Positions 24,962 through 34,268 of a stretch of 36,713 bases of DNA are shown here, piece by piece. This DNA is from Verrucomicrobiota bacterium (GTDB taxonomy: Bacteria; Verrucomicrobiota; Verrucomicrobiia; Chthoniobacterales; UBA10450), in the NCBI GenBank assembly GCA_003219265.1, contig QHQE01000002.1, positions 1-36,713 of the forward strand, in the 5' to 3' direction. The stretch's first letter is position 1; each line of letters opens with the position of its first letter. Under the pieces are notes generated by a model that saw only the letters and a list, made by a program, of their open reading frames with translations, searched no databases and was not told the DNA's origin. A program made the translations under genes and the position numbers.

Positions 24962-24975
24962 GGGAAGCGTGGATT

Positions 24976-24999
24976 CGTTAAATCGTTGAATCGTTAAAC
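24976..24999. repeat. Octamer tract at the alr 3' end
   Basis: Three 8-bp units CGTTAAAT, CGTTGAAT, CGTTAAAC. The alr stop codon (24994-24996 on the minus strand) lies within the tract. Same unit type as 30631-30662. Confidence 0.6.
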
Positions 25000-26097: not shown

Positions 26098-26711
26098 GAA
26101 GCGGTTGTTGCGGTTTTAGGTATGGTGATGTGCGGTTCGCGCAAATAAATTGGCTCAAGCGGCGGCAAAGAAAAGTTGTGACTCGCGCTTCGAGTAAGGC
26201 CTGCCAGCACAAGCGCCGAGGGATAACTAAGCTCAACGCCTTTAAATAGCGTCAGGTTATCGGACGAAAAGATCGGCATGTTATCTTCGAGCTTGTCCCA
26301 CTTCGCTTGCAGTTCGCTTTCAGTAAACAGCGTCGGACCTTCGATCAACCCGTGGGCGCGAACGCGGGCAAAGAAAAATGATTGGCGGCGTGCGTCCCCG
26401 ATGACGCCATATTCGTCCGCCTCACATTCCATCGCACAAATCGAAGGATATCCGATAAGTCGCGTTTTCGACGTAACTTGCAATCCAATCGCCGCCGAGA
26501 TCGCAATCCGAACGCCCGCATAAGAACCGGGCCCCAGACCAACAATGATTTCTTCTGGAGGACCGAATTTCTCGCGGATGTTCTGCAGGTTTACAAAAAA
26601 TGGTCCGGAATTCTTCCGATCGTTTGTCCATTCGCGCATGACAAGATCGACCTCATCCAGCCAGGCGATGCTGCCGCGCGCGGTGGAAAGTTCGAGGGCG
26701 AGAATTTTCAT
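26094..26711 (-). CDS. tsaB: tRNA threonylcarbamoyladenosine biosynthesis protein TsaB
   Basis: TsaB (205 residues) is the non-catalytic partner of TsaD in making t6A37 on ANN-reading tRNAs. The ASKHA-fold N-terminal half shows MKILALELSTARGSIAW, then VGLGPGSYAGVRIAISAAIGL, the family signature. The C-terminal part is less conserved and ends in PLEPIYLREP. TsaE is directly upstream with a 4-nt overlap; tsaD is not in the window. The 4-nt overlap with alr follows. Confidence 0.95.
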   Translation of the reverse strand: MKILALELSTARGSIAWLDEVDLVMREWTNDRKNSGPFFVNLQNIREKFGPPEEIIVGLGPGSYAGVRIAISAAIGLQVTSKTRLIGYPSICAMECEADEYGVIGDARRQSFFFARVRAHGLIEGPTLFTESELQAKWDKLEDNMPIFSSDNLTLFKGVELSYPSALVLAGLTRSASHNFSLPPLEPIYLREPHITIPKTATTAS

Positions 26712-27121
26712 TTCGTCTTGATCGCTCGCACGGTCTCCGATCTTATCTCGAAATTAAGCCAGCGCGCTTGCTCGGGAATGAATTCGGGAAAACGATCCGC
26801 CCATTCGACCACCGAGACGCCGGCGGCGAAAAAATAATCATCGAGGCCGAGTCGCGCGATCGATTTTGGATCTCGCAGGCGGAAAAAATCGAAATGATAA
26901 ATCGGCAAGCGGCCGCCAGGATACTCGTGCACAATCGTGAAAGTCGGGCTGGTGACGGATGCGCTACTTCCCACGCCGGCGACGAGCCCTTTGACGAATT
27001 GTGTTTTGCCGGTGCCGAGCGCACCCTGTAGCGCAAGCACCGAACCAAGCCCGACATCTTTGGCAAAGAGCCGCCCAATTGCCTCCGTTTCCGCCGGGTT
27101 ATTGGAAATGAACGTAGCCAC
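26708..27121 (-). CDS. tsaE: tRNA threonylcarbamoyladenosine biosynthesis ATPase TsaE
   Basis: TsaE (137 residues) is the P-loop ATPase that resets the TsaB-TsaD complex. Walker A GALGTGKT lies at residues 33-40; SPTFTIVHEY and LPIYHFDFFRL follow, then GLDDYF and VSVVEWADRFPEF, all family motifs. The 5' end overlaps thiL by 23 nt, and the 3' end overlaps tsaB by 4 nt. Confidence 0.96.
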   Translation of the reverse strand: MATFISNNPAETEAIGRLFAKDVGLGSVLALQGALGTGKTQFVKGLVAGVGSSASVTSPTFTIVHEYPGGRLPIYHFDFFRLRDPKSIARLGLDDYFFAAGVSVVEWADRFPEFIPEQARWLNFEIRSETVRAIKTK

Positions 27122-27989
27122 GGAGCAATCTCGAATCTCGAATCTCGAATCTCGAATTCAATCGACCGATGCGCGTCAGCAAAAGTTTCGGAAATTTTTT
27201 AGACCAACTCTTTTGCAGCCGTTCGCTTTCGCGCGGCGAGATCGCGAAGAGCAATTCGTAATCATCGCCGTCTGAGATCGCATTGTCGATGTTGCAGCCA
27301 GGGCTGCGCGGCAAAAGGTTGATGTCGATTTTGAATCCGACCTTGCTGGCGCGTGTGAGCCGTGGAAGATCGACGCCGAGTCCATCGCTCAAGTCCATCA
27401 TAGCATGGATCGAGAAATTCTTTGTCAACCAGCGCGATTCTTCGATCCGCGGGACAAATCGCAAGTGTCTTCCCCGGTTCGCTCCGCCGAGCCGGCCAGT
27501 GACAAAAAGATCATCACCGGCTTTGCCGCCGCTGCGCGAGACGCAGCGATTTTTCTCAACCAATCCTGAAACGCTGACCGAGATGACGGCGGGCCCTCGC
27601 GTGCTGCTCGTCTCGCCGCCGACAATGCTGACCTTGAAGCGCGCCGCGGCCCGGCTCAGGCCGCGATAAATCCTTTTCACCCATTCGCTCGTTGTTTGCT
27701 TCGGGACAATGAGCGTAATCAACGCAAACTGGGGCCGAGCGGAAGTCGCGGCAAAATCGCTCAGCGGGCGCATCATTGCCTTCCAACCAACATCGAGAGC
27801 GTCGGCTCGCGGCAAAAAGTGCACGCCTTCGACCACGCAATCGGTTTTGAGAACGAGAAAATTACGCCCGGTGGGAGCTTCCACCAGCGCGCAATCGTCT
27901 CCGGCGCCCGCGAAGACTGCCTTGCCGCGGGGAAGACGAGGCAAAAGTTGAGCGAGCAGCCGGTCTTCGCCGAGCTCTCTCAATTTCAT
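27099..27989 (-). CDS. thiL: Thiamine-monophosphate kinase
   Basis: ThiL (296 residues) phosphorylates thiamine monophosphate to the pyrophosphate. Motifs present: the GAGDD metal loop near residues 28-32, DCVVEGVHF, DLSDGLGVDLPRL near 215, and SDGDDYELLF. The ATG at 27989 gives MKLRELGEDRLL, the family start, and overlaps the CPBP stop by 4 nt. The last 20 codons run through a four-unit heptamer tract yet still give a normal ending (GYVHF). Confidence 0.95.
   Translation of the reverse strand: MKLRELGEDRLLAQLLPRLPRGKAVFAGAGDDCALVEAPTGRNFLVLKTDCVVEGVHFLPRADALDVGWKAMMRPLSDFAATSARPQFALITLIVPKQTTSEWVKRIYRGLSRAAARFKVSIVGGETSSTRGPAVISVSVSGLVEKNRCVSRSGGKAGDDLFVTGRLGGANRGRHLRFVPRIEESRWLTKNFSIHAMMDLSDGLGVDLPRLTRASKVGFKIDINLLPRSPGCNIDNAISDGDDYELLFAISPRESERLQKSWSKKFPKLLLTRIGRLNSRFEIRDSRLLRGYVHFQ
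27127..27154. repeat. Perfect heptamer tract at the thiL 3' end
   Basis: Four exact copies of AATCTCG (CGAGATT on the coding strand) encode part of the ThiL C-terminus and lie 5 nt upstream of the tsaE start. The unit is not a multiple of three, so gain or loss of one unit would shift the thiL reading frame. Confidence 0.9.
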
Positions 27990-30624: not shown

Positions 30625-30630
30625 CGAGGG

Positions 30631-30662
30631 CGTTGAAACGTTGGAGCGTTGAATCGTTCAAG
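30631..30662. repeat. Octamer tract, CGTTGAAN family
   Basis: Four 8-bp units CGTTGAAA, CGTTGGAG, CGTTGAAT, CGTTCAAG, lying 7 nt upstream of the DUF6717-like start. Confidence 0.75.
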
Positions 30663-30682
30663 CGATAGAGATTTCGCCGCAG

Positions 30683-34240: not shown

Positions 34241-34268
34241 AACGTTCAACGCTCAACGCGCAACATTC
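34241..34268. repeat. Heptamer tract, CGTTGAN family
   Basis: Four 7-bp units AACGTTC, AACGCTC, AACGCGC, AACATTC, about 32 nt upstream of the prpC start. On the minus strand they read as CGTTGAN units, like the octamer tracts at 24976 and 30631. Confidence 0.65.

Follow-up and report, generated by a model that had tools for sequence, protein, structure and literature searches.

The perfect heptamer repeat at the junction of thiL and tsaE in this Verrucomicrobiota genome is probably a coding repeat that is locked to its reading frame, homogenises itself and belongs to a dispersed heptamer family, and it does not appear to act as a switch. Across the taxonomic family of this genome the array keeps its position, its frame and mostly its length, while one unit word gives way to another throughout the array.

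The features are collected in Table 1; the window is the whole stretch of 36,713 nucleotides that was analysed. On the plus strand the array reads AATCTCG x4 + AAT, with period 7 perfect throughout, and on the thiL strand it is ATTCGAGATTCGAGATTCGAGATTCGAGATT, i.e. (ATTCGAG)x4 + ATT. Read as in the first-pass annotation, it holds four exact CGAGATT units plus three bases (31 nt, 4.4 copies). Sequence and simulations thus confirm the perfect CGAGATT x4 tract which that annotation had placed at this junction. The span proposed for it (27099–27154) holds as to the presence of the tract and not as to its limits, as it runs from the thiL stop into the array. At lag 7 the longest run of matching positions (s[i]=s[i+7]) anywhere in the window measures 24, while 300 first-order simulations gave a maximum of 12, and a chance repeat is thereby ruled out. 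A three-unit word is unique in the 2.09-Mb assembly (no second site; reversed control 0). The array does end just upstream of the tsaE start, as had been claimed: the GTG at 27121 lies within thiL, 5 nt past the array, and the two genes overlap by 23 nt. The idea that the tract encodes the C-terminus of ThiL has to be corrected, since the extreme end is GYVHFQ, which lies downstream of the array and contains the conserved GYxHF motif. The nearest relatives of this ThiL are soil MAGs of Udaeobacter/Chthoniobacterales. An Rfam search of the window gave a tRNA as its sole match. Weaker arrays of period 7–8 are seen in the window at 24964–24995, 30630–30664 and 34241–34264, with the words AATCGTTN, GCGTTGAA and NNCAACG.

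Table 1. Features at the thiL–tsaE junction (window coordinates)
Feature	Position	Strand	Basis
perfect array of heptamers; thiL strand reads (ATTCGAG)x4 + ATT	27127..27157	-	sequence, lag-7 simulations
13-codon ThiL linker NSRFEIRDSRLLR, filled by the array	27120..27158	-	13 codons also in 62/74 distinct family sequences
GYVHF codons, conserved ThiL end, overlapping the tsaE start	27105..27119	-	G291, Y292, H294 and F295 invariant (22 rows)
thiL, thiamine-phosphate kinase	27099..27989	-	TIGR01379, 216.7 bits vs cut-off 184.15
tsaE, GTG start	26708..27121	-	PF02367; TIGR00150, 112.8 bits vs cut-off 60.1

Relatives among the soil Verrucomicrobiota MAGs have the same arrangement. Junctions were extracted from 143 loci, 109 from the family and 34 from other families of the order, with some genomes present twice; four loci had no recognisable thiL end and three had no GYxHF-like motif in their DNA. 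In the relatives the array fills the ThiL linker between TRIGxL and GYxHF (G[YFH]xHF), and because of this position it is coding, though not the last part of ThiL. The linker is 39 nt in most of the distinct family sequences (Table 1), and the remaining ones have 11 (one sequence), 12 (six), 14 (two), 19 (two) or 32 codons (one). Where the motif is present, GYxHF stands in the thiL frame at 106 of 107 family junctions and at all 29 outgroup junctions. Mean self-match at lag 7 is 0.59 in the family (60 distinct sequences) as compared to 0.31 in 19 outgroups; at other lags it is 0.21–0.31 in the family, apart from the harmonic lag 14 (0.53). The linkers with 19 or 32 codons (L161, L203, L028/L216) carry additional in-frame pieces within the array, and among these pieces are small palindromes such as AGTCCGNCTCGGACY in L161 and L203. 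As for the structure of the linker, an AlphaFold model built from 22 close relatives has a mean pLDDT of 37.5 and was left unused; ThiL relatives exist in the PDB, and the alignments shown end before the end of the linker.

The sequence of the units is much less stable than their place. Unit words vary by species (AATCCGC, AATCGAA, AATCCGA, CATCAAA, TCTCAAC, ATTCGAG and others), and the five rows of the window's own clade, whose branches are well supported, already hold three of them. In the thinned set 47 of 61 linkers are array-like; some of the other 14 are also 39 nt long, so the array is dispensable for the linker. For the 47 array-like linkers, unit identity is 0.831 within an array, 0.559 at the same position between species and 0.554 at different positions between species, and none of 2000 permutations gave a within-array identity as high. 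Units that evolve independently would not be expected to show such an excess over same-position identity. Selection on the protein is excluded as the cause of the periodicity: a lag of 7 nt is out of codon phase and shifts the letters between codon positions, so the uniformity must come from a process at the DNA level. In columns where two of the four units share a variant, the sharing units are adjacent (AABB) in 21 of 31, with ABBA and ABAB seen five times each; one third would be expected, keeping in mind that the columns are not independent. The TCTCAAC class is different in having arrays that are decayed and not homogenised.

We suggest that the array serves as a flexible linker joining the ThiL body to the GYxHF end that overlaps the tsaE start. 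Transient slipped pairing would copy units onto their neighbours, with the length unchanged or with each gain offset by a loss. Changes by a single unit would then be purged by selection on the thiL frame and on the thiL–tsaE overlap, because any such gain or loss destroys the ThiL end and the overlap, and loss of one unit fuses the frames of the two genes.

Replacement of whole arrays is a strong rival to this copying between neighbours, and we give it an appreciable, though less than even, chance. Here an array would repeatedly recombine with other heptamer arrays, or new four-unit arrays would be written, and only the in-frame outcomes would survive. Between loci L004 and L005 every one of the four units has changed despite 87% identity over the upstream 90 nt, and neither this change nor some others, such as that from TCTCAAC to AATCGAA, have intermediates; whole-array replacement fits changes of the latter kind at least as well as spread unit by unit. 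A tree of 40 ThiL proteins requires at least 20 changes among 13 unit classes, potential donor arrays are plentiful, and the equality of same-position and different-position identity means that unit order is not remembered. However, adjacent units share variants, as the AABB columns demonstrate, and the flanks of different arrays seem to offer no homology that could guide recombination.

The reading that we prefer is self-homogenisation within a fixed frame. The thiL tract is one member of a dispersed set of very short heptamer arrays with the core AATCNNN, usually about four units and about 31 bp, which are found near the ends of genes or within conserved proteins, where they are read in frame as hydrophilic loops. 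The corresponding pattern AATCNNNAATCNNNAATCNNNAAT is present in 78 of 83 family genomes, with reversed controls near 0. It occurs in 155 of 387 genomes sampled across the phylum, where its abundance is lineage-specific and reversed-control matches are numerous in some genomes. In four genomes (G374, G439, G288 and G579) the reversed control pattern (TAANNNCTAANNN...) is very abundant, which suggests a separate heptamer class there. Within 397 kb of the window's genome (G000) period 7 is the commonest, with 10 tracts; every other period between 4 and 13 gives 0–6 (period 6, four; period 8, six) and the harmonic 14 gives seven. Array size points to a preference for four units: among 51 arrays with at least three anchors, 13, 28, 9 and 1 have three, four, five and six, respectively. 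Our own count also peaks at four, both in G000 (7/9/3 for three to five anchors) and in G021 (10/14/5/1 for three to six), and so does a further set of loci, part of which had been picked by a pattern that favours more than three. Genome-wide, identity of the NNN part is 0.367 within arrays as compared to 0.076 between arrays, and unit order has a weak effect, which 53 of 2000 shuffles reached. In the literature searched, with subscription journals mostly outside it, we found no prior account of an AATCNNN family in Verrucomicrobiota.

Similar repeats have been described in other bacteria. Rehm et al. 2015 (PMC4692102) report GGGNATC repeats in Xanthomonas and Nostoc, found as four-unit arrays and inverted pairs, with the four units tied to G-quadruplexes. 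On that account, both systems have period 7, dispersed arrays near genes, a four-unit preference and paired inverted copies, and GGGAATC, being a rotated AATCGGG, fits AATCNNN. The GGGNATC repeats described there are G-rich and mostly intergenic, whereas the AATCNNN arrays are nearly devoid of G-tracts and many lie in frame within genes; our study also follows unit turnover at one fixed site across species. In MacGregor 2015 (PMC4679880), the TAACTGA repeats of Beggiatoaceae are likewise heptamers close to start codons and also in ORFs, and a translational role is hypothesised; they are said to have one fixed unit in 2–6 copies, with related heptamers rare, whereas AATCNNN varies freely about its core. 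The same paper cites Mrazek et al. 2007 for 7 nt being the most abundant class of long SSRs in most genomes surveyed, a general statistic that, as cited, carries no fixed size or site-specific turnover. The nearest parallel for siting in frame in unrelated conserved genes is found in the Rickettsia palindromic elements, small dispersed repeats located in frame in unrelated metabolic genes according to a review (PMC10969869). As given there these elements are about 150 bp long and palindromic, whereas the AATCNNN arrays are tandem heptamers of about 31 bp; nothing in the arrays corresponds to a long palindrome that encodes a conserved peptide.

G-quadruplexes are ruled out here as the reason for four units. 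GGG makes up one of 407 NNN triplets (in a set whose loci were partly picked by a pattern favouring more than three units), the window's own CGAGATT is free of G-tracts, and the size bias persists, so another cause is needed. One could imagine that heptamer arrays of four units constitute a genetic element in their own right and not slippage debris. A cellular activity would then write or rewrite them at chosen sites in several phyla, with a fixed size of about 31 bp and a free three-base variable part, and the G-quadruplex link reported for four-unit GGGAATC would be a by-product of that particular unit. We regard this proposal as improbable when taken with all its parts.

G021 and G024 together supplied 40 stretches in which the siting of arrays relative to genes was examined. 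Of 51 arrays 19 are within predicted genes and 32 outside, and the nearest gene edge is at most 21 nt away in 23 of 31 cases after the last AATC and in 6 of 32 before the first; these counts rest on a simple homemade gene finder, which may tend to place gene starts clear of arrays. All 19 in-gene arrays are in sense orientation. This bias would fit a tolerated hydrophilic peptide, the antisense peptide being hydrophobic. The hosts, which we take to be PurL, GlnRS, Der, GcvP, UvrA, PrmC, TrmD and ValRS, receive peptides such as NPKSEIRNPKSEI. Equivalent loops of PurL and ValRS in other species carry different heptamers or palindromic repeats, again in frame (28 PurL loops were extracted, two of them query loci seen twice, and 24 ValRS loops, one likewise). 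At L291, L292, L297, L302 and L308, which come from several species, the PurL loop holds an in-frame hairpin-like repeat of the type GTAGGGCGAGACTC...GTCTCGCCCTACC. One divergent gene pair, present in several genera (L076, L086, L087, L089, L090, L092), has two AATCNNN arrays facing away from each other, each a few nucleotides upstream of a start codon. At L074, L085, L245 and L250 arrays stand immediately before what look by eye like tRNA sequences.

Such positions raise the question of a regulatory element. By analogy with the proposal for TAACTGA repeats, the A+T-rich array before tsaE, a gene that lacks a Shine–Dalgarno sequence, may be a landing site for ribosomes or an RNA-binding protein. 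The short distance between array and tsaE would suit this role, and so would the low GC of the linker (0.46, as compared to 0.56 upstream), the scarcity of SD-like cores upstream of tsaE (just 2 of 74) and the gene edges often found within about 20 nt of arrays. We nevertheless judge it unlikely: arrays are found likewise beside stop codons, beside tRNAs and within genes, the junction is unchanged in linkers that lack the array, and the unit sequence is not conserved.

The first-pass annotation proposed that the tract could be a phase-variable switch of downstream coupling, worked by slipped-strand change of one unit. As a rival explanation, this would have changes of unit number toggle the ThiL ending and its coupling to TsaE on the time scale of populations. 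Phase-variable SSR contingency loci have a tandem unit that is not a multiple of three at a coding end, and the thiL unit resembles them in that a unit change shifts the frame. The frame arithmetic behind the claim is borne out in silico: with one unit less or two more thiL enters the tsaE frame as a single ORF of 424 or 431 aa, with one more or two less it runs in the third frame to 417 or 410 aa, and a change by three in either direction retains the present end. There is also a natural case, G025 (L204), with three AATCGCA units, where the open frame runs from ThiL through TsaE. This is the sole out-of-frame family junction among the 107, so single-unit change does occur, yet rarely, when species are compared. 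The annotation had named invariant copy number across many isolates as the finding that would refute a switch; between species the copy number is nearly constant, and the 39-nt linkers and in-frame GYxHF ends give the switch no support at this level. Four copies are short for a phase-variable tract. In addition, the genes involved are housekeeping genes, and like arrays stand at many unrelated genes, often adjoining or within housekeeping genes. We therefore consider phase variation very unlikely. An assembly artefact or chance can practically be dismissed: nearly all compared sequences are MAGs, but the excess over simulation is twofold and the feature recurs in dozens of independent genomes.

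At thiL–tsaE the reading frame between two conserved motifs acts as a natural ruler, on which repeat turnover can be followed through dozens of species at near-constant length. Soil bacteria are also shown to carry small repeats in frame within conserved enzymes. The preference of bacterial heptamers for four units is separable from G-quadruplexes, because it is present here almost without G-tracts. Should the arrays be rewritten elements, thiL–tsaE would be a site where rewriting is datable on the species tree, and if a dedicated activity makes them, an unexplained class of bacterial repeats would become testable.
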